Shown here: in pieces, positions 1-50,162 of the stretch
How the letters are laid out: the number at the start of each line of letters is the position of its first letter
How positions within the stretch are numbered: position 1 is the stretch's first letter
Source of the DNA: Pagrus major
Lineage: Eukaryota > Chordata > Actinopteri > Spariformes > Sparidae
DNA length: 64,000 nt
Assembly: GCF_040436345.1 (NCBI RefSeq)
Contig: NC_133215.1
Coordinates: 24,417,806-24,481,805, forward strand
Direction of reading: 5' to 3'
The notes under the pieces: generated by a model
Told to the model about the DNA's origin: nothing
The model's database searches: none
Seen by the model: the letters and a program-made list of their open reading frames with translations, nothing else
Position numbers and translations under genes: made by a program

Positions 1-85
1 AAAACTTTTCATACTTTGACACAAGCTTTTTCTTTATCACCACTCAGTGCAGCTTTTCTCTGCTATGTGTGCTGTCGGTCCTGCA

Positions 86-160
86 GTGATTGGCTGTGCT
101 ATGGTGGTTCAACAACTGGAGGAGGTTTATGACGGCAGAGACGAACCCTGAGTGAGAATG
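86..160 (+). promoter_or_regulatory. U3 copy 1 promoter (type a): CCAAT-type DSE and PSE
   Basis: An inverted CCAAT box (ATTGG, 89-93) lies 115 bases upstream of the RNA start. A PSE-like element, AACCCTGAGTGAGAATG, covers 144-160, that is -60 to -44. It resembles the vertebrate snRNA PSE pattern (ACCNTNACTNNAAAG). No TATA box sits at -30, as expected for Pol II snRNA-type promoters. The -60 to -44 spacing is the same in every full-length copy examined. PSE identity is by consensus and position only. Confidence 0.75.
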
Positions 161-203
161 ATCGTCCTGTGAAACACCTTCAGTTTTCACCATCATTCAG
201 ACT

Positions 204-420
204 AAGACTATACTTTCAGGGATCATTTCTGTAGTTTCTGACTTGAGAAATGTGTTTCTAAAGTGTTTGGTCTCGCTAACCACGATGATGAGTTGTGATA
301 TTCTCTTCTGAGCGTGAAGCTGATAGAGAGTACTGATTCAGTTCATATGCTCTCTGTCGTTGATGATTGTTCTGTACTTCCTCACAGAGTACTGAGGAAG
401 GGAATATGATCAGAGTGGTT
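204..420 (+). ncRNA. snord3: U3 small nucleolar RNA, copy 1
   Basis: U3 guides early 18S rRNA processing in the SSU processome. The 5' end AAGACTATACTTTCAGGGAT (204-223) matches the conserved vertebrate U3 start with GAC box and box A. Box B (GAGCGTGAAGC) and box C (TTGATGATTGT) follow in order. A terminal hairpin with arms CTTCCTCA/TGAGGAAG precedes the 3' end GAGTGGTT. Length is 217, equal to human U3. The expected box D CTGA reads CAGA (GATCAGAGT). About 10 bases downstream, GTGTCTAAAATAAAA resembles an snRNA 3' box. Confidence 0.93.
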
Positions 421-1089
421 ACAGATGTGTCTAAAATAAAATCAGCCTGAAAGACAAAAAATGCCCCTGTGATGTGATAACAATGTAGGGATAAAGAACT
501 TTGTTTAGTGCAGTTTGTTAATTTGAGAATGTCTCTTATGTCAACACAATAGCAGATCATGGCTGGCTAAAGTTATAGTGCGAGTTCAATGTTAATTGAT
601 TGCAGCAAGTATTTGGAATAACTGAGTTAAAAATGTAAGTGACTGAACTCCTTTTAATAAACATGAGAAAGGGAACATGATCACAGTTATTTAAAAAATA
701 CCATTGTAAAAATATGCTATGGCAAATATTAACCAATGTAACTAGTAACAGTTACTGTAACTATAATAATGCAGCCTACACCCTTCATAAGAACTGGTCT
801 TTATGCCCTCATAGCAGCTTTTTACAGCTTTTATTAGAGAAAATAGGCTGAATCAGAGTTGAGGACAAGTTAGTGTTTGAACGTCACAGTCCACACATTC
901 AGTCTCTCATGAGGAATAAAAACACATCAGTACTTTGAGATTTGGGGAAATGTAGTCACTGTAATTTTTGTAACTTTTCTTACTTTGTTACTTAAGACTT
1001 TTTATACACATGTTTTTTCTTTATCTCATCACTGCCTTAATCTCCTGTCTGTACGCCATGTTAGAGCTGTACTGTCAGTGGCATACAGC

Positions 1090-1192
1090 GATTGGCTGTG
1101 TTATGTTGTGTCATTTACATAAAACCACATGGCAGGTCGAGATGCAGCAACTGGAGGAGGGTTTCAACAGGGAGGAACCCTGAGTGAGAATC
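1090..1192 (+). promoter_or_regulatory. U3 copy 2 promoter (type b): CCAAT, octamer-like site and PSE
   Basis: The inverted CCAAT (1091-1095) lies at -145, about 30 bases farther out than in type a. The extra spacer includes ATTTACAT (1113-1120), one base off the Oct-1 octamer in reverse. The PSE-like AACCCTGAGTGAGAAT starts at 1176, again exactly -60. Copies 5 and 7 share this arrangement. Confidence 0.65.
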
Positions 1193-1235
1193 ATCGTCTT
1201 GTGAAACACCTTCAGTTTTCACCTCTGTTCAAACT

Positions 1236-1450
1236 AAGACTATACTTTCAGGGATCATTTCTATAGTTTCTGACTTGAGAAATGTGTTTCTAAAGTGTTT
1301 GGTCTCGCTAACCACGATGATGAGTCGTGATATTCCCTTCTGAGCGTGAAGCTGATAGAGCGTAATGATTCAGTTCATATTCTCTGTTGTTGATGATCAT
1401 TCTGTACTTTCTCACAGAGTACTGAGGAAGGGAATATGATCAGAGTGGTT
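1236..1450 (+). ncRNA. snord3: U3 small nucleolar RNA, copy 2
   Basis: Full length (215). It differs from copy 1 by the human-like CATTTCTATAGT stretch after box A, TCGTGATATTCCCTT before box B, and box C TTGATGATCAT. The 3' flank GTGTCTAAAAGAACAAAC is a better 3'-box match than that of copy 1. It is driven by the type b promoter. Confidence 0.93.
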
Positions 1451-1834
1451 ACAAAGCTGTGTCTAAAAGAACAAACTTCTACTTATTGAGAAAATCTGAT
1501 GTGACTGCAATTGAGAAAGGAATTTAGTTTACAAGTATAGCATGTCAGTTACAAGAATACTGATAGCTAACAAGATTGCAGATAAGACGGTTAAAGTTTA
1601 GTGTTTATTTGAGGAATTAAATAATTAGTGAGTGAAAGACAGAGAAACTTTGATAATTTGTCATTTCAAACATAAAAATTCCAGTCCTGTTACAACTTTG
1701 TTGTCAGCCCTGCAGTGATTGGCTGTGCATTGTTGTGGTTCAACAACTGGAGGAGGTTTATGATGGCAGAGAGGAACCCTGAGTGAGAATGATCGTCCTG
1801 TGAAACACCTTCAGTTTTCACCATCATTCAGACT

Positions 1835-2050
1835 AGGACTATACTTTCAGGGATCATTTCTATAGTTTCTGACTTGAGAAATGTGTTTCTAAAGTGTTTG
1901 GTCTTGCTAACCATGATGATGAGTTGTGATATTCTCTTCTGAGCGTGAAGCTGACAGAGAGTAATGATTCAGTTCATATGCTCTCTGTCATTGATGATCA
2001 CTCTATACTTCATTGTGAAGTATTGAGGAAGAGAATATGATCAGAGTGGT
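1835..2050 (+). ncRNA. snord3: U3 small nucleolar RNA, copy 3 (divergent)
   Basis: All boxes are present, but the second base is changed, so the RNA starts AGGACTATAC. The 3' hairpin is rewritten as ATACTTCA-TTG-TGAAGTAT, still perfectly paired. The 3' flank is unlike the other copies (GTGAAAAGAAAACAAAC). CCAAT lies at 1718-1722 and PSE at 1775-1791. It may be functional or a drifting variant. Confidence 0.85.
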
Positions 2051-2623
2051 AGAAGTACAGCTGTGAAAAGAAAACAAACAGTATGAATCTAGTAATATTG
2101 AGGCATCAAACTGTTGTTTCAGCTATCGACCGTCATACAACATGGATTGAGAGTTTTAAAAACAGTTCAAGACTTTGCTTAAGTTTCTAGTAACAAGTAC
2201 ATGATCAATAGGTTAGTGGGCCAAAATCACCAAATTGAATCTTAATCTTTACAGGAAGATAAACAGTGTACTGTTAGTGGCCATGTTAGTCTTCTTGAAA
2301 ACAGATTTCTTCATAATTCCTCCATTTTGTTTGCTGTCTGATCACTTCTGGAAGACTTGTTGTCTAGTAATGATTGAAAATTGGGACTTAAACAACTTTG
2401 TTCTGCTAATCATGGAGAGAAAAACTTTTCATACTTTGACACAAGCTTTTTCTTTATCACCACTCAGTGCAGCTTTTCTCTGCTATGTGTGCTGTCGGTC
2501 CTGCAGTGATTGGCTGTGCTATGGTGGTTCAACAACTGGAGGAGGTTTATGACGGCAGAGACGAACCCTGAGTGAGAATGATCGTCCTGTGAAACACCTT
2601 CAGTTTTCACCATCATTCAGACT

Positions 2624-2840
2624 AAGACTATACTTTCAGGGATCATTTCTGTAGTTTCTGACTTGAGAAATGTGTTTCTAAAGTGTTTGGTCTCGCTAAC
2701 CACGATGATGAGTTGTGATATTCTCTTCTGAGCGTGAAGCTGATAGAGAGTACTGATTCAGTTCATATGCTCTCTGTCGTTGATGATTGTTCTGTACTTC
2801 CTCACAGAGTACTGAGGAAGGGAATATGATCAGAGTGGTT
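2624..2840 (+). ncRNA. snord3: U3 small nucleolar RNA, copy 4
   Basis: Appears identical to copy 1, which lies 2420 bases upstream, including promoter (PSE from 2564) and 3' flank. Full length 217 with boxes A, B, C and the CAGA form of box D. Confidence 0.93.
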
Positions 2841-3655
2841 ACAGATGTGTCTAAAATAAAATCAGCCTGAAAGACAAAAAATGCCCCTGTGATGTGATAA
2901 CAATGTAGGGATAAAGAACTTTGTTTAGTGCAGTTTGTTAATTTGAGAATGTCTCTTATGTCAACACAATAGCAGATCATGGCTGGCTAAAGTTATAGTG
3001 CGAGTTCAATGTTAATTGATTGCAGCAAGTATTTGGAATAACTGAGTTAAAAATGTAAGTGACTGAACTCCTTTTAATAAACATGAGAAAGGGAACATGA
3101 TCACAGTTATTTAAAAAATACCATTGTAAAAATATGCTATGGCAAATATTAACCAATGTAACTAGTAACAGTTACTGTAACTATAATAATGCAGCCTACA
3201 CCCTTCATAAGAACTGGTCTTTATGCCCTCATAGCAGCTTTTTACAGCTTTTATTAGAGAAAATAGGCTGAATCAGAGTTGAGGACAAGTTAGTGTTTGA
3301 ACGTCACAGTCCACACATTCAGTCTCTCATGAGGAATAAAAACACATCAGTACTTTGAGATTTGGGGAAATGTAGTCACTGTAATTTTTGTAACTTTTCT
3401 TACTTTGTTACTTAAGACTTTTTATACACATGTTTTTTCTTTATCTCATCACTGCCTTAATCTCCTGTCTGTACGCCATGTTAGAGCTGTACTGTCAGTG
3501 GCATACAGCGATTGGCTGTGTTATGTTGTGTCATTTACATAAAACCACATGGCAGGTCGAGATGCAGCAACTGGAGTAGGGTTTCAACAGGGAGGAACCC
3601 TGAGTGAGAATCATCGTCTTGTGAAACACCTTCAGTTTTCACCTCTGTTCAAACT

Positions 3656-3870
3656 AAGACTATACTTTCAGGGATCATTTCTATAGTTTCTGACTTGAGA
3701 AATGTGTTTCTAAAGTGTTTGGTCTCGCTAACCACGATGATGAGTCGTGATATTCCCTTCTGAGCGTGAAGCTGATAGAGCGTAATGATTCAGTTCATAT
3801 TCTCTGTTGTTGATGATCATTCTGTACTTTCTCACAGAGTACTGAGGAAGGGAATATGATCAGAGTGGTT
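3656..3870 (+). ncRNA. snord3: U3 small nucleolar RNA, copy 5
   Basis: Counterpart of copy 2 at +2420, with type b promoter (PSE from 3596). The RNA appears identical to copy 2. One base in the upstream region differs (GGAGTAGGG for GGAGGAGGG). Confidence 0.93.
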
Positions 3871-4254
3871 ACAAAGCTGTGTCTAAAAGAACAAACTTCT
3901 ACTTATTGAGAAAATCTGATGTGACTGCAATTGAGAAAGGAATTTAGTTTACAAGTATAGCATGTCAGTTACAAGAATACTGATAGCTAACAAGATTGCA
4001 GATAAGACGGTTAAAGTTTAGTGTTTATTTGAGGAATTAAATAATTAGTGAGTGAAAGACAGAGAAACTTTGATAATTTGTCATTTCAAACATAAAAATT
4101 CCAGTCCTGTTACAACTTTGTTGTCAGCCCTGCAGTGATTGGCTGTGCATTGTTGTGGTTCAACAACTGGAGGAGGTTTATGATGGCAGAGAGGAACCCT
4201 GAGTGAGAATGATCGTCCTGTGAAACACCTTCAGTTTTCACCATCATTCAGACT

Positions 4255-4471
4255 AAGACTATACTTTCAGGGATCATTTCTGTAGTTTCTGACTTGAGAA
4301 ATGTGTTTCTAAAATGTTTGGTCTCGCTAACCACGATGATGAGTTGTGATATTCTCTTCTGAGCGTGAAGCTGATAGAGAGTACTGATTCAGTTCATATG
4401 CTCTCTGTCGTTGATGATTGTTCTGTACTTCCTCACAGAGTACTGAGGAAGGGAATATGATCAGAGTGGTT
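4255..4471 (+). ncRNA. snord3: U3 small nucleolar RNA, copy 6
   Basis: Copy 1-type RNA with one visible change (AAAATGTTTGG for AAAGTGTTTGG). It sits 599 bases after copy 5, where the first repeat holds copy 3. The upstream region is copy 3-like (TGCATTGTTGTGG) while the RNA is copy 1-like, so the repeat junction or a conversion tract falls near here. Confidence 0.92.
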
Positions 4472-5286
4472 ACAGATGTGTCTAAAATAAAATCAGCCTG
4501 AAAGACAAAAAATGCCCCTGTGATGTGATAACAATGTAGGGATAAAGAACTTTGTTTAGTGCAGTTTGTTAATTTGAGAATGTCTCTTATGTCAACACAA
4601 TAGCAGATCATGGCTGGCTAAAGTTATAGTGCGAGTTCAATGTTAATTGATTGCAGCAAGTATTTGGAATAACTGAATTAAAAATGTAAGTGACTGAACT
4701 CCTTTTAATAAACATGAGAAAGGGAACATGATCACAGTTATTTAAAAAATACCATTGTAAAAATATGCTATGGCAAATATTAACCAATGTAACTAGTAAC
4801 AGTTACTGTAACTATAATAATGCAGCCTACACCCTTCATAAGAACTGGTCTTTATGCCCTCATAGCAGCTTTTTACAGCTTTTATTAGAGAAAATAGGCT
4901 GAATCAGAGTTGAGGACAAGTTAGTGTTTGAACGTCACAGTCCACACATTCAGTCTCTCATGAGGAATAAAAACACATCAGTACTTTGAGATTTGGGGAA
5001 ATGTAGTCACTGTAATTTTTGTAACTTTTCTTACTTTGTTACTTAAGACTTTTTATACACATGTTTTTTCTTTATCTCATCACTGCCTTAATCTCCTGTC
5101 TGTACGCCATGTTAGAGCTGTACTGTCAGTGGCATACAGCGATTGGCTGTGTTATGTTGTGTCATTTACATAAAACCACATGGCAGGTCGAGATGCAGCA
5201 ACTGGAGGAGGGTTTCAACAGGGAGGAACCCTGAGTGAGAATCATCGTCTTGTGAAACACCTTCAGTTTTCACCTCTGTTCAAACT

Positions 5287-5501
5287 AAGACTATACTTTC
5301 AGGGATCATTTCTATAGTTTCTGACTTGAGAAATGTGTTTCTAAAGTGTTTGGTCTCGCTAACCATGATGATGAGTCGTGATATTCCCTTCTGAGCGTGA
5401 AGCTAATAGAGCGTAATGATTCAGTTCATATTCTCTGTTGTTGATGATCATTCTGTACTTTCTCACAGAGTACTGAGGAAGGGAATATGATCAGAGTGGT
5501 T
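5287..5501 (+). ncRNA. snord3: U3 small nucleolar RNA, copy 7
   Basis: Copy 2-type RNA with type b promoter (PSE from 5227). Small changes include AACCATGATGATGAG and GAAGCTAATAG just after box B. The 3' flank AAAGATGTGTCTAAAAGAAC keeps the 3'-box-like motif. Confidence 0.92.
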
Positions 5502-5885
5502 ACAAAGATGTGTCTAAAAGAACAAACTTCTACTTATTGAGAAAATCTGATGTGACTGCAATTGAGAAAGGAATTTAGTTTACAAGTATAGCATGTCAGT
5601 TACAAGAATACTGATAGCTAACAAGATTGCAGATAAGACGGTTAAAGTTTAGTGTTTATTTGAGGAATTAAATAATTAGTGAGTGAAAGACAGAGAAACT
5701 TTGATAATTTGTCATTTCAAACATAAAAATTCCAGTCCTGTTACAACTTTGTTGTCAGCCCTGCAGTGATTGGCTGTGCATTGTTGTGGTTCAACAACTG
5801 GAGGAGGTTTATGATGGCAGAGACGAACCCTGAGTGAGAATGATCGTCCTGTGAAACACCTTCAGTTTTCACCATCATTCAAACT

Positions 5886-6100
5886 AAGACTATACTTTCA
5901 GGGATCATTTCTATAGTTTCTGACTTGAGAAATGTGTTTCTAAAGTGTTTGGTCTTGCTAACCATGATGATGAGTCGTGATATTCCCTTCTGAGCGTGAA
6001 GCTGATAGAGTGTAATGATTCAGTTCATATACTCTGTTGTTGATGATTGTTCTGTACTTCCTCACAGAGTACTGAGGAAGGGAATATGATCAGAGTGGTT
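5886..6100 (+). ncRNA. snord3: U3 small nucleolar RNA, copy 8
   Basis: Full-length RNA with intact boxes A, B and C; PSE from 5826. The 3' flank is shortened to ACAAATAACAAAC, so the 3' box is weak. This is the last copy before the orientation switches. Confidence 0.88.
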
Positions 6101-6255
6101 ACAAATAACAAACTTTTACTCATCAGGAAAATCTGTTATAACTGCAGTTGTGAAAGGAATTTAGTTTATAACTAAGGATACTGATAACAAGATTGCAAAT
6201 AAGTTGATGGTTAAGGTTTAGTGCTCATCTGAGGAATTACATTTCAGCAACGTGT

Positions 6256-6292
6256 ACTGAAGGTGTTTCACAGGACAATCATTCTCACTCAG
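6256..6292 (-). promoter_or_regulatory. Orphan U3 promoter fragment
   Basis: On the minus strand this is the PSE-proximal part of a U3 promoter (CTGAGTGAGAATGATTGTCC and the following CACCTTCAGT), with no U3 RNA after it. It marks a rearrangement point where + and - copies meet. Confidence 0.6.
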
Positions 6293-6760
6293 CGCTGAAT
6301 GAAAAGTTTTTCTCTCCATGATTAGCAGAACAAAGTTGTGTTAAATTCCCAATTTTCAATCATTACTAGACAACAAGTCCTCCAGAGGTGATCAGACAGG
6401 AAACAAAATGGATGAATTATGAAGAAATCTGTTTTCAAGAACACTAACATGTACATCGTAAACCTCCTCCAGCTGTTGAACCACAGCATATCACAACCAA
6501 TCACTGCAAGCCACTGACAGCAAAGCTGTCACAGGACTGGCATTTTTATGTTTGAAATTACATATTATCAAAGTTGCTCTGTCTTTCACTCACTAATTAT
6601 TTAATTCCTCAAATAAACACTAAACTTTACCACTGTCTTATCTGCAATGTTGTTAGCTTCAGTGTTCTTGCAACTGACATGCTATACTTGTAAACTAAAT
6701 TCCTTTCTCAATAGCAGTCATATAACAGATTTTCTTGATGAGTAAAAGTTTGTTCTTTGT

Positions 6761-6977
6761 AACCACTCTGATCATATTCTCTTCCTCAGTACTCCATGGA
6801 GAAATACAGAATGATCATCAATGACAGAGAGCATATGAACTGAATCATTACTCTCTATCAGCGTCACACTCAGAAGAGAATATCACGACTCATCATCGTG
6901 GTTAGCGAGACCAAACACTTTAGAAACACATTTCTCAAGTCAGAAACTACAGAAATGATCCCTGAAAGTATAGTCTT
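6761..6977 (-). ncRNA. snord3: U3 small nucleolar RNA, copy 9 (altered box B)
   Basis: Full-length minus-strand copy with an intact 5' end and the PSE at 7021-7037. Box B reads GAGTGTGACGC instead of GAGCGTGAAGC, two changes in an element that binds the U3-specific protein. The terminal hairpin is also changed (TTTCTCCATGGAGTACTGAG). It is probably a pseudogene or a weak variant. Confidence 0.75.
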
Positions 6978-7552
6978 AGTCTGAATGATGGTGAAAACTG
7001 AAGGTGTTTCACAGGACGATCATTCTCACTCAGGGTTCGTCTCTGCCGTCATAAACCTCCTCCAGTTGTTGAACCACCATAGCACAGCCAATCACTGCAG
7101 GACCGACAGCACACACATAGCAGAGAAAAGCTGCACTGAGTGGTGATAAAGAAAAAGCTTGTGTCAAAGTATGAAAAGTTTTTCTCTCCATGATTAGCAG
7201 AACAAAGTTGTTTAAGTCCCAATTTTCAATCATTACTAGACAACAAGTCTTCCAGAAGTGATCAGACAGCAAACAAAATGGAGGAATTATGAGGAAATCT
7301 GTTTTCAAGAAGACTAACATGGCCACTAACAGTACACTGTTTATCTTCCTGTAAAGATTAAGATTCAATTTGGTGATTTTGGCCCACTAACCTATTGATC
7401 ATGTACTTGTTACTTGAAACTTAAGCAAAGTCTTGAACTGTTTTTAAAACTCTCAATCCATGTTGTATGACGGTCGATAGCTGAAACAACAGTTTGATGC
7501 CTCAATATTACTAGATTCATACTGTTTGTTTTCTTTTCACAGCTGTACTTCT

Positions 7553-7695
7553 ACCACTCTGATCATATTCTCTTCCTCAATACTTCACAATGAAGTATAG
7601 AGTGATCATCAATGACAGAGAGCATATGAACTGAATCATTACTCGCGGTCAGCTTCACGCTCAGAAGGGAATATCATGACTCATCATCGTGGTTA
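7553..7695 (-). pseudogene. U3 fragment lacking its 5' third
   Basis: The 3' part from ACCACGATGATGAG through box B, box C and the GAGTGGT end is kept, with a copy 3-like hairpin. The sequence then jumps straight into U3 promoter sequence (ACCCTGAGTGAGT), so the GAC box, box A and hinge are missing. It cannot function as U3. Confidence 0.8.
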
Positions 7696-8034
7696 CTCAC
7701 TCAGGGTTCGTCTCTGCCATCATAAACCTCCTCCAGTTGTTGAACCACAACAATGCACAGCCAATCACTGCAGGGCTGACAACAAAGTTGTAACAGGACT
7801 GGAATTTTTATGTTTGAAATGACAAATTATCAAAGTTTCTCTGTCTTTCACTCACTAATTATTTAATTCCTCAAATAAACACTAAACTTTACCACCGTCT
7901 TATCTGCAATCTTGTTAGCTATCAGTATTCTTGTAACTGACATGCTATACTTGTAAACTAAATTCCTTTCTCAATTGCAGTCACATCAGATTTTCTTAGT
8001 GAGTAAAAGTTTGTTCTTTTAGACAAGTCTTTAC

Positions 8035-8184
8035 AACCACTCTGATCATATTCCCTTCCTCAGTACTCTGTGAGGAAGTACAGAACAATCATCAACAACA
8101 GAGCATATGAACTGAATCATTACGCTCTATCAGCTTCATGCTCAGAAGGGAAACTATAGAAATGATCCCTGAAAGTATAGTCTT
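8035..8184 (-). pseudogene. U3 copy with internal deletion
   Basis: The 5' end up to CATTTCTATAGTTT is joined directly to CCCTTCTGAGCATGAAGC, losing about 65-70 internal bases including the 3' hinge and C'-like box. Box B also carries one change. Its promoter (about 8228-8244) is intact, so a shortened RNA could still be transcribed. Confidence 0.8.
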
Positions 8185-8550
8185 AGTCTGAATGATGGTG
8201 AAAACTGAAGGTGTTTCACAGGACGATCATTCTCACTCAGGGTTCGTCTCTGCCGTCATAAACCTCCTCCAGTTGTTGAACCACCATAGCACAGCCAATC
8301 ACTGCAGGACCGACAGCACACACATAGCAGAGAAAAGCTGCACTGAGTGGTGATAAAGAAAAAGCTTGTGTCAAAGTATGAAAAGTTTTTCTCTCCATGA
8401 TTAGCAGAACAAAGTTGTTTAAGTCCCAATTTTCAATCATTACTAGACAACAAGTCCTCCAGAGGTGATCAGACAGGAAACAAAATGGATGAATTATGAA
8501 GAAATCTGTTTTCAAGAACACTAACATGTACATCGTAAACCTCCTCCAGT

Positions 8551-8597
8551 GTACTTTCTCACAGAGTACTGAGGAAGGGAATATGATCAGAGTGGTT
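8551..8597 (+). pseudogene. U3 3'-end fragment
   Basis: Only the terminal hairpin, the CAGA box and GAGTGGTT remain, followed by an intact 3'-box-like flank (GTGTCTAAAAGAACAAAC). The left edge adjoins reversed spacer sequence at a second orientation switch. Confidence 0.8.
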
Positions 8598-8967
8598 ACA
8601 AAGATGTGTCTAAAAGAACAAACTTTTACTCACTGAGAAAATCTGTTGTGATTTTGTAAAGTGTGAAGGAATTTATTTTACAACTAAGAGTATTGATAGC
8701 TAGGAATTAAGTTAAGATGGTGGTTAAAGTTTAGTGTTTATTTGAGGAATTAAATAATAAATGAGTGAAAGAAAGAGTGACTTTAATAATATGTAATTTC
8801 AAACATAAAAATTCCAGTCCTGTTACAGCTTTGTTGTCAGTGGCTTGCAGTGATTGGCTGTGCTATGGTGGTTCAACAACTGGAGGAGGTTTATGACGGC
8901 AGAGACGAACCCTGAGTGAGAATGATCGTCCTGTGAAACACCTTCAGTTTTCACCATCATTCAAACT

Positions 8968-9184
8968 AAGACTATACTTTCAGGGATCATTTCTGTAGTT
9001 TCTGACTTGAGAAATGTGTTTCTAAAGTGTTTGGTCTCGCAAACCACGATGATGAGTCGTGATATTCCCTTCTGAGCGTGAAGCTGACAGAGAGTAATGA
9101 TTCAGTTCATATGCTCTCTGTCGTTGATGATTGTTCTGTACTTCTCCATTGAGTATTGAGGAAAGGAATATGATCAGAGTGGTT
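8968..9184 (+). ncRNA. snord3: U3 small nucleolar RNA, copy 10
   Basis: Last full-length copy: intact 5' end, box B GAGCGTGAAGC and box C TTGATGATTGT. The terminal hairpin is partly changed (CTTCTCCATTGAGTATTGAG). PSE from 8908 and inverted CCAAT near 8853 are present. The 3' flank (GCAAGCAATTTTACAAAAA) lacks the usual 3'-box motif, so 3' processing is uncertain. Confidence 0.87.
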
Positions 9185-10138
9185 GCAAGCAATTTTACAA
9201 AAAAAAAGCTCTTATTGAGAATGATATAAAAACAGATTGGTTGCAAGAGACTCATGACAATGGTGAGAATGTTGGTAGTCAATTACATTGCTGATGAAGG
9301 GTTAGTTCTCATTCAAAGAATTGAATAGTGCACTTGTTGATTAAAAGACAGGAACCTTGTAAAAATGCAAGTTATTCTTAATGTTCAGGTTCTGGCAAAT
9401 CAACTGTAGAAATTTCTCTGTTTTCTGAAATTCTATAGTGTAAACTAAAAAGATAATCAACACATTTTAATTTCGTAAGTATGAGAAAGAGAATGTGATC
9501 ATTGTGTTTTTTAAAAATACCAGTTATAATGCGGAAGGGAAGGACTTGATGTCTAGTAATCATTGACAATTGTGACTCAGCTGTGTGCTGTCAGAGTTCT
9601 GCAGTGATTGGCTCTGCATCTTCAGCTAAAGAGTTACACTGCCAAGTAGTTTGTGAGCGACAGAGGAGATTATTCCTGCCGATGTCTGACAAACTGTACA
9701 ACTCTGCTGTCGTTTGTCACAAAATGAACCTAAGGGAAAACTCGCTAGTTTTACAATGCGATTTTAAGATTTTGGAAGTCAATGCTCCTGGTGATCCCAA
9801 ATTAATATATGTGTGTCATTCATGAATTTAGTTTTTGCAATCAAAACAAACAAAACAGGCATCTATTATGACAATGATCTTAATACAACACAAAAAATAT
9901 GAAACATAATAGAAATGCATTAAACCACCAAAAATCTACTTTAATTATAATATGGATTCAATTAATACTCAATAGAGTGAGTTGTCTCCTTGAGGGCCAC
10001 AAAGATGGTCTTCATATGGTAATAATCATAAAACGTCCTTTTCTTTTTGTTTTGAATAGATGCTGACAATGAGTTTTAAATTTGAGGTCTAAAAAATAAA
10101 ATGTTTTTTTGTTGAGCTTTAATTGCTTTTATCATGAA
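9185..10138. other. Intergenic stretch with a U3 promoter relic
   Basis: AT-rich sequence between the U3 cluster and VPS37A. A relic of the U3 distal promoter (GTTCTGCAGTGATTGGCTCT, around 9597-9616) remains without PSE or RNA. Nothing else recognisable. Confidence 0.5.
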
Positions 10139-10150
10139 AACGTTATAAAA

Positions 10151-10250
10151 ACAGGAAGTGGCTCTTGACGCAACTCGCTCCGTGACGTAATACGTAAATA
10201 AGTTGATCAAGCTTGCTCACTCGAAAGGTTGTCTTCTTAAGATTGAATTA
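10151..10250 (+). promoter_or_regulatory. Probable VPS37A promoter
   Basis: Start of a CpG-richer block. An ETS-like ACAGGAAGTG (10151-10160) and a CRE-like TGACGTAA (10183-10190) lie 340-375 bases before the VPS37A start codon. No TATA box is evident, fitting a housekeeping promoter. Inferred from motifs only. Confidence 0.45.
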
Positions 10251-10525
10251 TCTCTCGCCTTGGTAATATTAACGACAGTGATGAAATCATAGACTTACTC
10301 CGAGATTAAACGGAATTGACATTTTATCGGACGCATCAGGACATGCCCTCTGACTTTGTAACGTAGCTCAAGTAAAGCCTCGTGAGGACAACAACCCGTC
10401 GTTAGTCAACAAGCTAACAGGCGTTAGCACCGCAGAGCTCTCACTTTCTCTTCCATTTCGTCTGCGTGTGTTGTCGGCCTTTAGATTCTGTCGCCAGGTT
10501 CAGTCCGTGGTTTTGCCAGGAGAGG

Positions 10526-13500
10526 ATGAACTGGCTTTTCCCCCTGTCCAAAGGCTCCGGACCTCTCCCTCCTCTGAACAGCCTACAGCAACAAAGACAG
10601 CGGCAGATCGAGTCACTCAAAGCTGCTCATCCGAGGTAACCGTGAATGGCAACCGGTCACCTGGTGCTGCCGATTAGCTTGTTAACAGTAACGTTATTTT
10701 ATTTTATTTTTTAAAACAGAGCTTGGTCAGTTTCTGGCTACTGGTGTCGATAACGAGAACATGTTGTCGGAGAGCACGCACACACACGGTGTGTTTACTT
10801 AGCATAGCTAGCCACTTGGCTGACAGTTAAGTCACAAGAAGTACGTCAGGCTAACATATAACTCATTGCCTTTATCCTCGCACACGTTTGTCGCTGCTAT
10901 ACTTAAAATATATGTCAAAATACCAAAGTCACGATATTACGTGAAGCAACAACCACTGCTTTTATGTGCTCCTCTGTGGACACCGAATAGCTAATGTTTG
11001 CTAACCTTTCCTCGTAGCTAACTAGCTAGTTAGGAATGATTTGGCAGGGCGCTGTGTTAGCCGTCTAGCTAATCAAGTGAGCCGGTGACAGTTACAGTAT
11101 CTATATTTAGGACTGATGACACAAGTTGTAGCTGGCCTGATACATCTTGTGATCATTCCAGTGTTAACTCGAACTTGTCACGCCTGTAGTTTTAGGAGGA
11201 GCTAGCTAATTAGATGTGGAGATTAAAGTATTAGCCTTTGTTTACTATAATAGAATTGCACGGGCCACAATGTACTGTGGTGAATGCTGCTCATGGCGTG
11301 GCGATGATGTCTAAGCGTGGGTGAATGGGAAAACAAGTTTCATACTGTTTAAAGATTGTGAGCAGACAGAGCCCCTCAACAGGCCATAGCAAACTTCTGT
11401 AGGGGTAAAGGATTATATCAGGCATAATGTGTTGACTTTCTGAAGTCATCATGACTGCAGTAAACAGTATGGTTTTACAGTTATTGCATGCAGTAATAGT
11501 AGGCAGATATGACTGGTGGAGCGTAGTCATGTGTTGGTAATGCAATGAGGCAAATAAGTAAGTGGATCAGCATTGGGCAAAGTAGTTAGTACAGATACAT
11601 GTTTTCTTGTTAGTTAAATGTCTTCAATTCAGGTTTTCTTACAAGTTCAGATAAAAGAAAAAAATAGGATTGTAGTAAAACTTTTAGATTGTACAGTTTA
11701 CTCTGTGGTCGGTCCAGTTTGCCTGGAAAACTGTGTCTACGTCTTAGCAAATTCGGTGGGTAAGGGATTAAGCATATAGAGTCATTGAGCGAGATTAATC
11801 ATTGAAGGTCTCTCTTTGTGAGTCTTTCTTTCTCCAAACTAGCAGGAGTTTCATTAACATTGATAAAGGATGTATACGACAGTTTCGAAATGTGCTGATC
11901 AAGACTACTGATGAAAGATTACAGATCATGACCTTCTTGTATTACTGTTTCCCAACAGCCTCGCAGAGATCCAGAAAGATGTTGAGTACAGAATACCATT
12001 CACAGTCAACAACTCCACCATTAGTGTTAATGTGTAAGTACAGTTTCTCACACATGGTCACAGTGTCACAGTATCAAATGCAGGCTGTGTGCTGGATTCA
12101 CAGTCACATATCATATTTTTTGTTGTATTTTCCTTTAGTCTGCTGCCTCCTCAGTTCCCCCAGGAGAAGCCGGTGGTTAGTGTCTACCCCCCTGTTGGTC
12201 ATCACTTAGTAGACAGCAATAATGGCACCATGATCACCAGCCCCCTCATCACTAATGTAAGTAGTTGTTTTGTTTTGTGTGATTCCTAATCTTGGTTTGT
12301 TGAAGGGGTTCGATGGGATAAAGGGGTTCTTACAAATCTGTGATCTGAGATCATTCAAGAAAACCACCAGCGGCTAATTTGTTACCTGGTTTTGAAACTG
12401 TCAACACACTCAGTGACATGAATGTTCTTGCTGTTTTCTCCACTGTTAAAATAACCTTATCTCATGGTTTCCTACAAGGGCAGGTTGAAAAGGGGTAGAT
12501 CATTACTCACAGCTGTATCCATAATGAATAAATGTCACATCTGACCAAAACTGAAACTGAAATGGTTAGTCACAGTAAAACGCTTTCTGTAGCTGAACAG
12601 TAGATCATTTCAAGATACAGTCACATGTGAGTAGTGCTTCTTTCAGCACAGAGTCCGTGCTCTTACTGCGTCCTCAGTTCAAATGCTCTGTCTTGTTTCC
12701 GTGATTCCATCATTATGCAGGTTTATGATCATCTTTGTTTGTGGAGCATTTGTTTGACCCCTTGATATCCCTCCCAGTCACTATGTCTCATTTCCGTACC
12801 AAAGCCAGGATAAGGGCTTATCCAGATATCTGAATCAAGGCTGTGATGTTTACACACAAATAGCTGTAGTTTGAATAGAGATAGGGGGAGAAAGCTGATT
12901 ACTGCCCAGCTACATGTAAACATGGGTTTCCCCTAATCAAGTGAATCTTCTCCTGATTCTTATAATAACATGCAAACGTAGTGTTCAACTCGCAGTATCA
13001 ACTTCTATTTGTCTTTCCTGGTTGTTTGATATTTAATGTAACTTTTGTTAGGTCAAACTTTAGTTTCATAAGTGATGATGTTCTTAGTTTCCTCCAAGTA
13101 TTTTTAGTTTTTGTTGTTGTGTATGTTGTAGTTTGGGATGCACTCAGATCTGGGTAAGGTCATTCAGAGTCTGCTGGATGAGTTCTGGAAGAGTCCCCCT
13201 GCCTTGATGTCCAGTGGCCCTGGTGGCTTTCCATAGTGAGTCTGCTCTTTCATTCATAGACATTTGTCTCTAAGTACTTTCTCATTATAACAGGAAGTTC
13301 AAGTGTTGTGTAACCTAAGTTTAAGTATTTTTGCAGTAATGCTTTTATATGGGCATTGCAGTAAATTAGTAGCCCTAAAACCCAGTTCATTATTATAATG
13401 GAAATTTGGGGCAACATTATGTAACCTTGTCATGTTTTTTTACTATCAAACATATTGTGTTAAACTGGAACCTGTGTGCCTTTTCCTGAATAGTCACGGT

Positions 13501-19016: not shown

Positions 19017-19126
19017 GTTGTTTCCTTTGTCTTTCTGGGTTGAATCGTTTACTTTTACAGCCACACATTGTGAGTTGCAGATTGTTTAGGTATCTGTGTT
19101 CTGTGTGTCTAGGTCAGTCCAGAAAC

Positions 19127-22100
19127 ATGTCGCGACAGATGGGAGACAGCCATCGGAGGTTCCTACAGACCATGATGGGCAGTGGCATCATCGATCAACA
19201 AGGGGCAAAGGCACTCTATCAGTATTGTTGTGAAACCCACAACAGTGAGTCATTTTATATAATAGTCACTGATGTTGATACCAGAGTAACTCAAGGGTTC
19301 ATCTCTGTAGCAGAAGACAGGCTCTCATACAGCAGGTCGAGGCCTGTGCAGATCCTTTAACGGCAAGAATAGAAATATGCCTCGAAAGTATTTTTTATTT
19401 AATCTTTGAAGTTCAAGTGAATATTTGAATTGCCTTTTACATGAACTATTTCAAGTATGTACATTTCATGAACACAACTTTTTCTGTTGGGAATAGTAAC
19501 ATTTTCAGTCAATGAGTTCCCTTACATTTGATTCAGAAAATGATAAACTAGACAGAAATTGAAATCTTCCTAATAAAGGAATTTAAAACCTGTGTTGAAA
19601 CTATAAAGATTCAGTCAGTTTCCAATGTATTCATCTTACTGCTTCTTTAAGTCTATCTTTGAAACTAACAAACTTTGTCTTTCTTGTGTTTGTTTTTTTT
19701 TGCAGCACAGCACGCCCCTGACAAACTGGATGATTTCATTGAGCCCATCAACTCAAAGCTGCAGCCCATGTTCATGCAGATTAGAAAAGGGATGTCTGAA
19801 GACAACGGTCAGCAGTACTACGCCTTGGTTAGTGGCTTTAACTGAATTTTTAAAAATTGACTCTTTTGAAGTCACAGGTTGGTTGGTGAATTGAGGGAGT
19901 CAAAGTTACACAGTTAAACAAAAAGTAGCTTTCTTTGGTCTGTATGTTCTGCAAAGTCCAACATGCACACAGACTCAGGTAAACATTTTAATAAGTCGGG
20001 TCCAATAGTCTGTGATCACATTGAAAATCTCTAATATTATCGAATAAACATGGAAATAATCAGAAAGTTTGAAGATTCAAAAGATAAATGAAAGTTAAAT
20101 TGATATTCTAAGCCAAGAAGGCCTTTCTCAGCCTCATGACCAGACTAAAGGTTTCTTAGTGGGCAGTGCACAGAACTCTAAAATGTTTTTCAGAAACTAG
20201 ATCAGATCAGGCAGACCCAAAATGACCACACCATCAGAGGATCAATACATTAAGGTGAGTTCCCTAAGAGTTAGAAAAGTTAATTTATCGAAGATACAGG
20301 AAAGGTAATGTCACAAATTAAGCTGTCTTGTGGTGGTCTCAGAGTTTCTAAACCACATCTCAGTAGGTGAAACAAAGCCAAACACTTGGAATACCAGAAT
20401 TTCACAGTGGATGACTGGAAAAAGTCCTATTTACTGGTGAATCCAAGTTACAGATGTATGGCAGTGACAGAAGGGTGTATATACGGAGACGAACAGGAGA
20501 GAGGATGATACCACAGTGTTTCAAACCTACAGTGGTGGGAATATTCACATCTGGGGCTGTTTTGCCTCCTTTGTATTTATCAGTGTGATTAGTTGCTCAG
20601 TAGGTGGTGAAAGATGTGTGAAATGTGAAAACAGCTGCAAATTAAAAATGGGTTGCTAAACCTTTGTCTGCATCTAAAGCATGTTGAGTCAGCAGGAGGC
20701 TTTATTAATCACAGTTTCACTGAAATCCTGTCCAGGTAAACATGGCTGAGACTGATGTCACCAGGATGTCCTCAGATTATGCTGACAATGAGCTGGAGCT
20801 GTTCGGGAAAACGGTGAGTGAATTTTGCAGAAAGAAATCCTCATGGATTAAAGTTCTCCGTCGCTACAAACTTAACAGAGGCGACCTGTGAGATCAACGT
20901 AGATCGGAGGAGAACTGTTGGCTGATGTTTATTGACAGATTGTCACACTCTACAGCCAATTATATCGTTAACAGCGTGTGCGCGCCTGACCAATTGCAGT
21001 GCAGTGACCCACACAGGGTGGGATCGCAACACAGAGCGGCACTAAAGTTTAGCTGCTTAGCTAGCAAGGACTCGTCGCGCTGCTACGTTATCAATTGAGT
21101 TTAGTCAGCACGTGAGAACTCGTCTGACACGGAGAGTCTCCTGTTGTGTGCTACATGTGTGAAATAACAGCTATAGTCTGGACTTTGTCTGCAGTGTATC
21201 TGTGTAAACGGCTTCATTCAGCGTCTCTCCCTCCCCTCTGGCACCGTGAGTTACCATGGTTACAGGAACGCCCTGAAACTTCATAATGATGATCAATAAG
21301 AAGCTTTTGGTTAGTTTGACTGTACAAAATCATGAATGTAGCCTGATGTGCTGAAATCTTGTATTATAACATATAGAACAAAGCCTCAGAGCTTCTTTGA
21401 TTACTAACAGTATGTTAGTGATGACAGAAAGGTGATAACTCGCCATCAGACTGACAAGGCTGCAAAAGTTGCTGCTTGTATGATGTATTTTTCTGTTAAA
21501 CGATAAGAGGCTCACTTTAAACAATATTATTAATAATAATAATTAATGATGATGAGAAGAAGTAGAAAAATAGCGTACTGAAAAGTTCTGTAGATGGTTG
21601 ATTATTTGAAAGAGTAAAACTTGAGAGAAACTTGGCAAAAATAAAGACACAGTTTGATTTGAAAATTACATTGAAAAGACAAAAAACATTTTAAGTGTGA
21701 ATAGAACAGCTGTTCAGATCATCCTCCTGTAAAACACTGTTGGTCAAATATTTAAACTTGATGTCTGCATTAGAGAACATGGTGTGGGGTGAGGCTGTAA
21801 ATCTTATCTTGTTTTTTTAGCACGTGTCAAGTAACGTGCCCTGTAACATGTTTCACAAATTACAAATTGGGAATATGACTTGGCTACAGCTCGAAAAAAT
21901 ATTTCAGTCAAAAGATTTTTTTTTGCTTTAATCCATGAATCCTGCTGAGTAACATTTTGGAGACAATTCTAAATCTAAATGTAATTTATTGCAATGGGAC
22001 GTGTTTCAGCAGTAATTGTAGTGCTGAGCTTCTTCAAAACCTGTTATTTGTTATTCCTGAACTTGAGCTGTTGATATTCAGATTGAGCTGATCGTGGGCT

Positions 22101-26280: not shown

Positions 26281-27273
26281 TTAAAGTATATTTGCCTGAG
26301 AGGAATCCTGCTCTAGTATCCTCAGGGTGACAATGAACTTAATAGCTTTCCTAAACCACGGGTAGAAAAATGCATATATGAGAGGGTTCAAACAAGAGTT
26401 AAAAAACAACAGCCAGGACACGATGGCCCAGTATGAAGTACTGTTTGAGATGTCCTGTCCTGCCAGAGAGGGGTAGTAATATGGACAGAAGGTCATCAGA
26501 AACACCAGTATGACAATACCCAGAGTCCTGGCTGCTTTTTTCTCTGATTTCTTTGCAGTGACTGTAACCGTACCACCTGCAATGACTGTAACATGAGACT
26601 GCATGGCTCGAGCCTGAGACACTGCCACAATAAACACCCTCATGTACAGAACAATGATGACTGAACACGGACCGATGAACGTGAACACGAGGTCGATAGT
26701 TCCTGAGACGTAGTTGATCACTACCAAACACTCCCCGTGGCAGGAGTTGTGTCTGTCCGGCCGCCTGAGATGGTCCTTTAGAATCAGCCCGTTGTAGAGG
26801 AGTGAGCAGGCCCAGCACACACACACACACACCTCCACTCTGCTGCGAGTGATTTTGTTGGGGTACTGCAGAGGATGACAAATAGCTACATAGCGGTCAA
26901 TGGATATGAGCACCATGTTCCCCACAGAGGCTGAGGTGAGGATGAAGCTGATAATGTAATATAGAGCGCACATGAGATCGCCCAGCAGCCAGCAGGGTTC
27001 TATGAAGCACACCATCTCCACCGGCATCACCAGCAGCCCCACCAGCAGGTCGGAGATGGCCAGGGAGAGCAGGAGCAGGTTGGTGGGCGTGTGGAGCTGT
27101 CTGAAGTGGGAGATGGAGATGATAACAAGCAGGTTGAGAGCCACAGTGAGCACTGTGATGCAGGAGAACAGAGTGTAGAGGAAGACGGCTTCAGAGCGAG
27201 GACGCTTTAAACCCCTGCAGGACGAGTTCAGGAGCTCAGGGTAGCAGAGCTCGGCTCGCTCCAGGCCCTCCAT
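26281..27273 (-). CDS. taar: Trace amine-associated receptor, copy A
   Basis: Single-exon class A GPCR, 330 aa. TAARs are mostly olfactory amine receptors in fish. The TM7 signature NSCLNPLIYAFFYPWF (residues 292-307) matches the TAAR fingerprint NSxxNPxxYxxxYxWF. Other landmarks: glycosylation site N16, D75 (2.50), C102 (3.25), DRY 126-128, W154 (4.50), P202 (5.50), P264 (6.50) in TFCP, NPLIY 296-300. Position 3.32 is S109 instead of Asp, and 5.42 is D194. 6.48 is F262 rather than Trp. Overall closest by eye to teleost TAAR13c-like receptors. The start is the ATG of MEGLERAELC; an in-frame stop lies just upstream. TM4 includes a coding (CA)8 run. Confidence 0.93.
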   Translation of the reverse strand: MEGLERAELCYPELLNSSCRGLKRPRSEAVFLYTLFSCITVLTVALNLLVIISISHFRQLHTPTNLLLLSLAISDLLVGLLVMPVEMVCFIEPCWLLGDLMCALYYIISFILTSASVGNMVLISIDRYVAICHPLQYPNKITRSRVEVCVCVCWACSLLYNGLILKDHLRRPDRHNSCHGECLVVINYVSGTIDLVFTFIGPCSVIIVLYMRVFIVAVSQARAMQSHVTVIAGGTVTVTAKKSEKKAARTLGIVILVFLMTFCPYYYPSLAGQDISNSTSYWAIVSWLLFFNSCLNPLIYAFFYPWFRKAIKFIVTLRILEQDSSQANIL

Positions 27274-28808: not shown

Positions 28809-31800
28809 TTACATTTACATTTACATTTAGGGCCTTTAGCAGACGCTTTTGTCCAAATCTACTTACAATAAGTACATTTGTCACAAGAAAGAAACCACAG
28901 CATATCACTGTCGAAAAAGTAAGAATGAAGTCACAAGTCATGCAATGCAGGGTCGAGTTGAAGTCTGAACAAGTGAATCTTGAGTCTTGCGGAATATGGC
29001 GAGTGACTCTGCTGTCCTGTCATTGGTCGGGAGTTTGTTCCACTACTGAGGCGCCAGAACAGAGAAGAGTCGTGACTTTGCTGAGCGACCTTTGTTTGCT
29101 CTCAGTGATGGCAGTACCAGCCGGCCAGCTGATGTAGTTGAAGGAAGTGCTTGTGCTGGGGCGTGTGGTCTGACTAGTGTTTGGAGGTAGATGGGTGCAG
29201 TTCCGTTGATGGCCTTGAAGGCCAGTACCATCTTCTCTGATCCGGGCTGCAACAGGAAGCCAGTGGAGGTCACGGAGGAGGGAGGTCACATGGGAGAATT
29301 TGGGTAAATTGAAAACAAGGCGCGTTGCAGCGTTCTGGATACGCTGCAACGGTTTACGCTAAGATTCCAGTGGATGCATGTCCGCTACGTTACGGCTCTG
29401 GTACAGTCTTGCTCCGTCGTCCGGCAACCCCCACCAGTTGCGTTTTGAGTCCACCACGGCGCAGCTCCGCCGATCAGCTGGAGTTACAAGACCGAGGAGT
29501 TCCCGCAATAATTACATAATCACCCGTGGCCGCAGTTATAGGTATGTGTCATAAACACAACAACACAAAGTGTGAAGGATAAGAAGAAGAGCTTGTATTT
29601 GTCTCTTTTTTGAGGTTTTATTTTGAAAATTAACCGGATGTCATGTTGTTGTTTCATGTCTGACTTCCTGTCTGCTCTGTGCTGAATTCGGCTGAATTGC
29701 TGCATCGTGCTCTGGCATCCGCCACATATAGAAGTCCTGTGTATCTGCTCCGGGGGACTGCGGACTGCCGGAGCTGGGATGCAGCAGACACGCAGCGCAG
29801 CGGACCTGGTGGAAGGTAACACATAGACTAGAGTGAAACTGATCAGCTCTGCTGCCGTGGCGGAGCCATGACGCAGCGGACATGTATCTGGTGGAATCGA
29901 GGGGTTAGTCGCAGAGGCTGGGAGTCCAGCCAAGAGCGAGTTGCAGTAGTCCAGGCGGGAGATGACCAGCGCTTGGTACAGAAGTAGTGTTGCATCCTTT
30001 GTGAGTAAAGACTGGATCCTGTGGATGTTGTAGAGGGCAAATCTGCAGGATTGTGCCACAGTAGTGATGTTGGGGGTGCAGAGCAAATAGAAGTGGTCCT
30101 AGTACTGAGCCTTGAGGGACACCAGTTTCCAGAAAGCAGGGTTCGGACAAGGAGTCATTCCATATGACCTGAAAGGTGCGATTTGTCAGGTATGATGTGA
30201 ACCAAGTTAGAGCAGAGTCAGCAATGCCAAGTTCAGCCAGAGTGGAGAGGAGGATTTGGTGGTTGACTGTGTCAAATGCAGAAGATAGGTCGAGGAGAAT
30301 AAGGACGGATGAGTGGGACGAGGCTCTGGCGGCACAGAGGGACTCAGTCGATGTGAGGAGGGCCGTCTCAGTGGAATGGGCAGTCCTGAAGCCTGACTGA
30401 TTGGGGTCAAGGAAGTTGTTTTGTGAAAGGTAGGAGGACAGTTGGTTGTAGACGCGCGTTCTAGGGTTTTAGAGAGGAATGAAAGAAGAGCTACATATCT
30501 GTAGTTTCGGATGTCAGCTGAGTCTAGGGTGGGTTTCTTTAGGAGTGGCTTTACTGTAGCAGTCTTGAAGGGAGCTGGAATAAGGCCTGAAGTGAGGGAG
30601 GAGTTGATCAGGGTAGTGAGGAATGGCAAGATGTCGTGAGAGATGTCTTGGAGAAGGGAGGAGGGAATCGGGTCAAGGGAACAGGTGGTGGCAGAGACGT
30701 AGATGTAACTAGTGTGTGAACATCTTCAGAGGAGAGAGGGCTGAAGCAGGTAAGGCCATCAGAGGTGAGGGTTTGGGGAGGTGCTTTCTGGATGGGCATA
30801 GGAGTAAATGAGGATCTGATGTCTTTTACTTTCTTGCAAAGTCATCAACAGTGAGGGAGGAAGGAGGGGGAAGGGTAGGAGGGGTGAGGAGAGAATAGAA
30901 CATGGATAATAGTTTCCTGGGGTTGGAGGCAGAGGAGTTGATCTTTGACAGGTAGAAGGCAGATTTGGCTGCTGACACAGTTGAGGTGAAGTCAGAGAGG
31001 AGGTTGTGGTAGTGAGCAAGGTCATCAGGATGACGTGATTTTTTCCATTTTCTCTCTTTGGCTCGTAGAGTCGATCTATTGGTTCGCAGAGATTCAGACA
31101 GCTGGGGTGAGATGATCGTGCTGGTCGGGAGGTGAGGGGACAGAAAGCATCTAAAGAGGAGGGGAAGGAGGATAACAGAGTGGAGGAGGCTTCCTCGGTG
31201 GACATTAGAGAGAATTGTTTTGTGGATGGTAGTGAGGAAAGAACAGTTGAGGAGCGAGTGGAGGGAGGGAGGGATTTCAGGTTGCGGCGGGTGGTGACCA
31301 TGTGAGGTGTAGGGCGAGGGAGGTGGTTGACTTCAAGGGGAGAGAGAAAGATACAAAGTGGTGGTTGGACACAGGGAGAGGGGTAACAGAGAGTGCCGAG
31401 GTACTACAGGACCTTGTGAAGACAAGGTCAAGTTGGTTCCTGGCCCGGTGGGTGGGTGGAGAGGGGGAGAGTGTGTGGTCAAATGTGAAGAAGAAGTCAA
31501 TGAATTCAGATGAGTGTAGATTCTCAGGGTGGATGTTGAAGTCACCCAGGACAACGTGTGGTGTGCCATCGTCAGGGGAGCAGCTTAGGAGGACGTCCAT
31601 CTCATCAAAGAAGTCACGGAGAGGACCGGGAGTGCAGTAGATCACCACAATGTTGAGCTTGAAAGAAGGGTGACAGAGACAGCGTGGAATTCAAGTGCAG
31701 ATCTGGGTAGTTGGTCCAGGGAAGGACCTGGTAGGACCACATGGGTGTGATGAGGAGTCCAGTTCCCCTTTTGCGACCTGTTAGTCTGGGGGAGTGTGAG

Positions 31801-32220
31801 AATGAGTAGGCAGTTGAGAGGGCAGCTGGAGTGGCAGTGTTTTCTGGGGTGATCCAGGCCTCCGTAAGGGCCAGGAAGTGGAGAGTCTGCAGGGAGGCAT
31901 AGGCTGAAATGGTGTCCGCCTTCTTGACTGCAGACTGGCAGTTCCATAGCCCCCCTAGTACTTCAAGTTCAGTACCAGTGGTGAATGTTGGGTAACAGAG
32001 ATTGGCTGGGTTACAGCCTCTAGCAATGGGTCTCCGTTGAAATCTTCTCCCGTTTGATGTCCTGACTGGGATTGGGTAGGAATCATGGCTGCGATGGGTG
32101 GACAGTGAGTAACTTGGACTCCCTTGATGGACTCCCGCAGAGAGACTCCTTAAGTCTTTGTTTGACAGTCTTCGTTTGGCTGTCCTGACGCTGCATCTGA
32201 CGCTGTAGTGACTAGCCCAT
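28809..32220 (-). mobile_element. L2/Maui-like LINE, unit A (defective)
   Basis: Minus-strand non-LTR retrotransposon. The 3' end at 28809 carries a short (ATTTAC)n tail next to the fish-typical CAGACGCTTTTGTCC motif. Reverse-transcriptase pieces: FNLPKFSHVTSLLRDLHWLP, VISRLDYCNSLLAGLPASA, ETGVPQGSVLGPLLF, TATVKPLLKKPTLDSADIRN. The APE endonuclease (about 31277-31650) shows VLGDFNIHPE, NQLDLVFTRS and SNHHFVSF. Several frameshifts and stops break the ORF, and a 548-bp element is inserted at 29357. The 5' edge is uncertain. Family by motif style only. Confidence 0.85.
29357..29904. mobile_element. Non-autonomous element with TTA target duplication, unit A
   Basis: Inserted in the LINE. Ends CGCTAAGATTCCAGTGGATG and, reversed, CCCCTCGATTCCACCAGATA, followed inward by shared CATGTCCGCT. 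TTA flanks both sides (29354-29356, 29905-29907), and unit B shows the uninterrupted site at 41551. A 3-bp TTA duplication suggests a PIF/Harbinger MITE. Confidence 0.65.
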
Positions 32221-38855: not shown

Positions 38856-39129
38856 CGTCTGCCACTGAGGGGAGGTGATGGCCTGAACCTGCTGAGCTCC
38901 AGCAGCTCTCTGATCGTACCAGACATGGTGCAGCTCTGTTATCTCCTCCACAACTCCCCAGTCATCCTCTTCATCACTGTCTTCTGTCAGCCCGTTCTTT
39001 GTTTCTTTAATTTCTCCTCATCTCCCTCACCCCTCCCTCACTTATTCCACCCTCCCTCCTTCCCTTTCAATCCCACTGATACTTGATGCAACATATTTGT
39101 TTCATGCAGCAGATGGATAACTTTTCTGT

Positions 39130-49858: not shown

Positions 49859-50162
49859 CGTCTGCCACTGAGGGGAGGTGATGGCCTGAACCTGCTGAGC
49901 TCCAGCAGCTCTCTGATCGTACCAGACATGGTGCAGCTCTGTTATCTCCTCCACAACTGCCCAGTCTTCCTCTTCATCACTGTCTTCTGTCAGCCTGTTC
50001 TTTGTTCCTTTAATTTCTCCTCATCTCCCTCACCCCTCCCTCACTTATTCCACCCTCCCTCCTTCCCTTTCAATCCCACTGATACTTGATGCAACATATT
50101 TGTCTCATGCAACAGATGGATAACTTTTCTGGAAAGTTTGTTTGAGTCACATCAACTTACCT

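Follow-up and report, generated by a model that had tools for sequence, protein, structure and literature searches.

A multi-copy cluster of U3 small nucleolar RNA genes in Pagrus major, with deleted copies and fragments

Introduction

U3 is a standard eukaryotic RNA for ribosome building. Here, a cluster of sequences related to this small nucleolar RNA (snoRNA) is described from Pagrus major. The stretch analyzed comprises 64,000 nucleotides (nt) of NCBI RefSeq assembly GCF_040436345.1 (contig NC_133215.1, positions 24,417,806 to 24,481,805 of the forward strand); this whole stretch is referred to as the window, and all positions are counted from its first letter. A previous reading of the letters by a model, made without database searches, had proposed that the left 9 kb (1-9184) is a multi-copy U3 locus, and this original prediction was followed up by computational analysis.

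Complete and Incomplete U3 Copies

The whole window was searched with covariance models from Rfam, and matches were kept at the gathering scores. Thirteen matches were obtained, of which twelve were U3 (RF00012) and one was UnaL2, the 3' element of a long interspersed nuclear element (LINE). Ten of the U3 matches were full length (model positions 1-219), nine on the plus strand and one on the minus strand, with 147.4-167.2 bits and E values from 2.2e-38 to 3.1e-33 against a gathering score of 34; since these bits and E values were reached over the full model, chance is excluded for the ten copies. The original prediction had counted ten full-length copies and named the RF00012 search as its check, and all ten were recovered by it. 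The two other U3 matches, both on the minus strand, were internally deleted copies (scores in Table 1). A second Rfam search, covering 1-12000 with E values up to 1, returned these twelve U3 matches again and no match to any other family; matches omitted as overlapping, lower-scoring members of the same clan numbered 34 in this search and 10 in that of the window. The complete copies are numbered c1 to c10 and the deleted ones t11 and t12 (Table 1).

The RNAs of the complete copies are 214-216 nt long, slightly shorter than the 215-217 given before, and comprise eight distinct sequences, c1 being the same as c4 and c2 the same as c5. Their pairwise identity is 89.8-100%, with shared gaps counted as matches, as in all RNA identities given here. 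Repeat analysis and BLAST revealed further debris, namely a 3'-terminal U3 fragment (8550-8596) and two promoter fragments. The previous inventory thus held for the ten copies and lacked the two deleted copies, the 3' fragment and the promoter fragments. The cluster might extend leftward past position 1, because the upstream flank of c1 reaches the edge of the window.

RNA Sequence, Boxes and Folding

The RNA starts with AAGACTATAC in nine of the ten complete copies and with AGGACTATAC in c3 (1835), in agreement with the A(A/G) start proposed before. Motifs for boxes A, C', B, C and D are present in that order in every complete copy, and the order A, B, C of the original prediction is borne out. 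Box A (pattern TTTCAGGGATCATTTCTRTAGT, RNA position 11), box C' (TGATGA, position 80 or 83), box C (TTGATGAT, position 155 or 157) and box D (TCAGAG, position 205 or 207) were found in all ten. Box B (GAGYGTGA, position 107) is likewise present in all ten and is altered in c9 (6977, minus strand), where it reads GAGTGTGACGC in place of the GAGCGTGAAGC of the others.

In the alignment of the ten sequences, 35 of 216 columns vary, and the variation is unevenly distributed: 5 of 79 columns vary in the 5' domain, where box A lies, against 30 of 137 columns after it (Fisher p = 0.002). When the RF00012 structure was laid on the alignment, six of its 62 pairs showed changes on both sides, all of them in the 3' domain. 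This number was equalled by 1 of 500 shuffles, and the covariation score by none of 500, in a control that is inflated by the close relationship of the copies. Sliding the structure along the alignment gave 0 or 1 double-changed pairs; this control is preferable, yet biased toward the structure, as the mapping went through c9, which is itself a row of the alignment.

Promoters and 3' Box

Vertebrate genes of the small nuclear RNA (snRNA) type, transcribed by RNA polymerase II, carry a proximal sequence element (PSE) near -55 to -60, CCAAT or an octamer as their distal element, and a 3' box a short distance downstream of the RNA. In all ten complete copies, a block resembling the PSE, ACCCTGAGTGAGAAT, starts at -59, and another conserved block, TGTGAAACACCTTCAGTTTTCACC, starts at -36. 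Neither of these blocks, nor the CCAAT string, was found in the window beyond 10 kb. From -60 to -13, 46 of 48 columns are invariant among eleven sequences, the ten copies and t12, which keeps ACCCTGAGTGAGAAT and TGTGAAACACCTTCAGTTTTCACC at the usual distances from its true RNA start (8184). The inverted CCAAT box, GATTGGCTGTG, lies at -116 in c1, c4, c9 and c10, at -118 in c3, c6 and c8, and at -146 in c2, c5 and c7, and it also occurs in t11 and t12. An extra upstream stretch with an octamer-like ATTTACAT is present in c2, c5 and c7; at the sequence level, the distal element is therefore an inverted CCAAT in 10/10 copies and an octamer-like motif in 3/10. The distal promoter fragment at 6456-6516 has the GATTGG core and has lost the longer CCAAT string. 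The original prediction had given every copy a PSE-like element and an inverted CCAAT box with a fixed -60 spacing, of which the PSE-like part stands and the CCAAT box is present throughout, but not at a fixed position.

Downstream of the RNAs, comparison with a mammalian 3' box consensus gave two mismatches in seven of the ten copies, three in c3, four in c9 and five in c8; among 3000 random stretches, 7.7% do as well as the seven copies or better, and the end of the 3' fragment is approximate in this comparison. A common gap at the 3'-box-like stretch is shared by c8 and c9. Judged by sequence resemblance (a PSE-like block at an invariant distance, a CCAAT box and a weak 3' box), the members of the cluster may be snRNA-type genes.

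Flanks and Duplication History

The flanks of the units can be categorized into classes. Upstream, class a comprises c1, c4, c9 and t12, class b comprises c2, c5 and c7, and class c comprises c3, c6 and c8, to which c10 and t11 are related; the assignment of c1 rests on the identity of 1-300 with 2421-2720, since the window edge leaves 73 bases of its own flank for comparison. Downstream, class a comprises c1, c4 and c6, class c comprises c3 and t11, and c10 forms a class of its own. Downstream class b contains c2, c5, c7 and t12 (91%), and c9 (81%), the 3' fragment (69-70%) and, weakly, c8 (53%) resemble it; the flank values for t11, t12 and the 3' fragment are low, as the ends used deviated from the true RNA ends by between a few and about 120 bases. 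Between different classes the global identity is 7-48%, and 20 shuffles of a single flank gave 17-43%. Local similarity close to the RNA persists between some classes, such as a and b over about 160 bases downstream.

Whole stretches have been duplicated, spacers included. Comparison of older units shows similarity in the RNA and the proximal promoter and dissimilar outer spacers. The RNAs of c3 and c4, for example, are 91% alike, and their outer flanks have a global identity of 29% (-330 to -131) and 37% (+11 to +210 after the RNA), within the range of the shuffles. Upstream class c occurs with three downstream classes (a, c and, weakly, b) and upstream class a with two (a and b), so exchange by crossover or conversion most likely happened inside the units. 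The tandem duplication contains a portion with zero differences (1236-1834 versus 3656-4254), and the largest block of the inverted arm (6299-8528) is 97.6% identical over 940 bases. In t11, -47 to +73 is deleted, and the start site and box A are gone; t12 lacks about 65 bases of the RNA between about 36 and 100, box C' included. The cluster has thus been shaped by duplication, both tandem and inverted, and most likely by exchange within the genes.

To the right of the cluster, two plus-strand segments show weak matches, 9450-9529 to a U3 spacer (71%, E 1e-5) and 9582-9617 to the distal promoter (86%, E 5e-4); in the search of 1-12000 with E values up to 1, RF00012 matched neither. The region 9450-9617 is possibly an older, decayed U3 unit.

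Table 1. Positions of the U3 copies, their remnants, example promoters and duplications in the window.
Feature	Position	Strand	Description
c1, U3 RNA	204..419	+	RF00012 160.2 bits; flanks upstream a, downstream a; identical to c4
c2, U3 RNA	1236..1449	+	RF00012 149.3 bits; flanks b/b; identical to c5
c3, U3 RNA	1835..2050	+	RF00012 164.8 bits; flanks c/c; start AGGACT
c4, U3 RNA	2624..2839	+	RF00012 160.2 bits; flanks a/a
c5, U3 RNA	3656..3869	+	RF00012 149.3 bits; flanks b/b
c6, U3 RNA	4255..4470	+	RF00012 160.2 bits; upstream c, downstream a (recombinant)
c7, U3 RNA	5287..5500	+	RF00012 147.4 bits; flanks b/b
c8, U3 RNA	5886..6099	+	RF00012 149.8 bits; upstream c, downstream weakly b-like; no 3'-box-like element found
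c9, U3 RNA	6762..6977	-	RF00012 167.2 bits; upstream a, downstream b-like; box B changed; no 3'-box-like element found
c10, U3 RNA	8968..9183	+	RF00012 162.3 bits; upstream related to c, downstream own class
t11, deleted U3	7553..7796	-	RF00012 98.9 bits; RNA 74-216 (7695-7553) fused directly to promoter at -48
t12, deleted U3	8036..8184	-	RF00012 51.4 bits (match 8041-8179); outer ends read from sequence
3'-terminal U3 fragment	8550..8596	+	RNA position 168 to end (c7 numbering), then b-like downstream flank
Promoter fragment without RNA, about -56 to -20	6256..6292	-	BLAST 97% over 37 bases
Distal promoter fragment without RNA	6456..6516	-	BLAST 90% over 61 bases
c1 promoter (example)	88..203	+	inverted CCAAT -116, PSE-like block -59, conserved block -36
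c2 promoter (class b example)	1090..1235	+	CCAAT -146, octamer-like ATTTACAT -123, PSE-like block -59
Tandem duplication	1..4254	+	1-1834 versus 2421-4254: 1 difference in 1834 positions
Inverted duplication of cluster	6299..8528	-	largest block 7695-6758, 97.6% identical to 1908-2843

Coding Potential and the Rest of the Window

Six open reading frames (ORFs) of at least 90 amino acids (94-112) lie in 1-9184, across or antisense to the RNAs and spacers. Four of them gave no Pfam match at E 0.01, and the translations of the remaining two duplicate one of these four. The longest, of 112 amino acids, is of chance length: 71 of 200 first-order Markov sequences with matching composition contained an ORF as long. 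A protein-coding reading of 1-9184 was rejected on the absence of Pfam matches among these four ORFs, the repetition of one of them in the other two and the chance length of the longest, and the ORFs look spurious, as had been stated in the original prediction.

Beyond the cluster, four closely similar receptor ORFs are present on the minus strand (26281-27273, 37863-38951, 48866-49954 and 55070-56059). The ORF at 37863 is a seven-transmembrane receptor according to Pfam, and its best solved relatives are the trace amine-associated receptors 13c, 13d, 13e and 13a; the four ORFs form a local receptor expansion. Receptors with these names are known from fish, and UnaL2 is of fish origin; the two together point to a teleost. 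Reading of the ORFs also suggested pieces of a LINE-like element on the minus strand (29020-31947, 41129-41819, 46120-46593 and 58312-61004). Within the first of these, 31277-31648 matched endonuclease families in Pfam with E about 1e-5, one family lying slightly above its curated cut-off and another slightly below, and the UnaL2 match of Rfam lies at 57580-57633 (minus strand). At 43607-45418 (minus strand), three ORFs resemble, by reading of their translations, a disrupted transposase that begins with a zinc finger; the two that were checked gave no Pfam match at E 0.01. The apparent likeness of the plus-strand ORF 19040-19360 to the start of NSE1 (NSMCE1) was likewise unsupported, with no Pfam match at E 0.01. 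A tandem repeat with a 97-base unit (1.9 copies) occupies 57868-58052.

Interpretation and Alternatives

The left 9 kb is, with a probability of about 95%, a cluster of U3 snoRNA genes of the ordinary multi-copy kind, and the locus most likely consists of active U3 genes plus debris. The complete copies retain the parts needed for U3 function and are probably transcribed. Each intact unit would have an snRNA-type promoter of its own, used by RNA polymerase II, and would give a capped RNA of about 216 nt. This RNA would act in the U3 small nucleolar ribonucleoprotein (snoRNP), with its 5' domain pairing with the precursor of ribosomal RNA for 18S processing. Copies may arise via tandem duplication, inverted duplication and exchange inside units, and the same rearrangements would leave deleted copies behind.

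Several points weigh against this reading of the locus. The likeness of the units could be explained by gene conversion as well as by selection. The PSE-like block agrees with a mammalian consensus at 13 of 17 positions, a match also reached by 2.2% of 3000 random stretches; no recognizable 3' box was found in c8 (5886) and c9 (6977, minus strand), and the match is weak in the other copies. As for folding, the number of further pair types was equalled by 25 of 500 shuffles, and 83.7% of the cells pair (62 model pairs, distinct sequences). All ten copies match the whole RF00012 model; they differ from it in that 14 of the 62 model pairs are unformed in at least one distinct sequence and eight of these, including 4-38, 6-35 and 8-33 of the 5' hairpin, in every one. 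Pair 110-166, beside boxes B and C, is a C-A mismatch in three of the eight distinct RNAs (four of the ten copies).

The identity of the cluster as U3 genes is also kept if activity is confined to one or a few copies, the others being duplicates without function that are too young to have decayed; only the number of active copies differs. This is unlikely, while deserving serious consideration: the tandem units are nearly identical (one difference in 1834), so the absence of decay in them cannot be counted in favour of function, internal deletion has already affected two copies (t11 and t12), and c8 and c9 are without a recognizable 3' box. However, conservation of the RNA, its boxes and the block from -60 to -13 is seen between older units such as c3 and c4, whose RNAs are 91% alike and whose outer flanks are not, and six model pairs carry changes on both sides. 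The same near-identity, with no difference at all between 1236-1834 and 3656-4254, would also be expected if haplotypes or repeats had been wrongly joined for part of the array in one contig. We consider such an assembly artefact improbable. Simple doubling does not describe the junctions, since in c6 an upstream flank of class c is combined with a downstream flank of class a, and divergence is seen in c10 and in the inverted arm; a recent tandem duplication accounts for the same data.

U3 retropseudogenes are common in mammals, and a run of nine A lies about 18 bases after the c10 RNA. Retroposed pseudogenes are nevertheless ruled out, with a residual chance close to nil, by the promoter block upstream of all ten complete copies, which would be missing from a retrocopy, and the RNAs are full length. 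That the promoter classes and the eight RNAs represent stage-specific functional subtypes, for example oocyte (maternal) versus somatic U3, is very doubtful.

Comparison with Known U3 Genes and Significance

Human U3 genes are described as clustered and of complex inverted repeat structure in the title of a paper by Gao, Frey and Matera (1997; cited in PMC2784804 and PMC4802181). As far as this title conveys, the human U3 (SNORD3) cluster at 17p11.2 resembles the present one in having several clustered U3 genes with inverted repeats; here, neighbouring starts in the forward array are separated by 0.6-1.0 kb, and all ten complete copies fit into 9 kb. In Euglena gracilis, according to PMC2784804, 14 U3 variants differ mostly in the 3' stem-loop domain, the genes occur singly or in linkage with U5 or tRNA genes, and tandem U3 genes were not found in a search by polymerase chain reaction (PCR). 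The multiple copies and the mostly 3' variation are much as in this cluster, whereas the U3 genes are in tandem here, and the window contains no U5 gene (Rfam at gathering scores) and no tRNA gene (ARAGORN). The exact box A pattern had no match in contig collections of prokaryotes and of viruses. A fish U3 array was not found among the titles and abstract openings of the literature searched, most subscription papers being outside its coverage.

The locus is real but ordinary, since U3 clusters are already known, and the understanding of U3 is unchanged by it. The cluster provides a readable example of how a family of small stable-RNA genes changes, with flank classes recombined around units whose RNAs are 89.8-100% identical, and the diagnostic bases of the eight RNA sequences would make the expression of single sequence types measurable.

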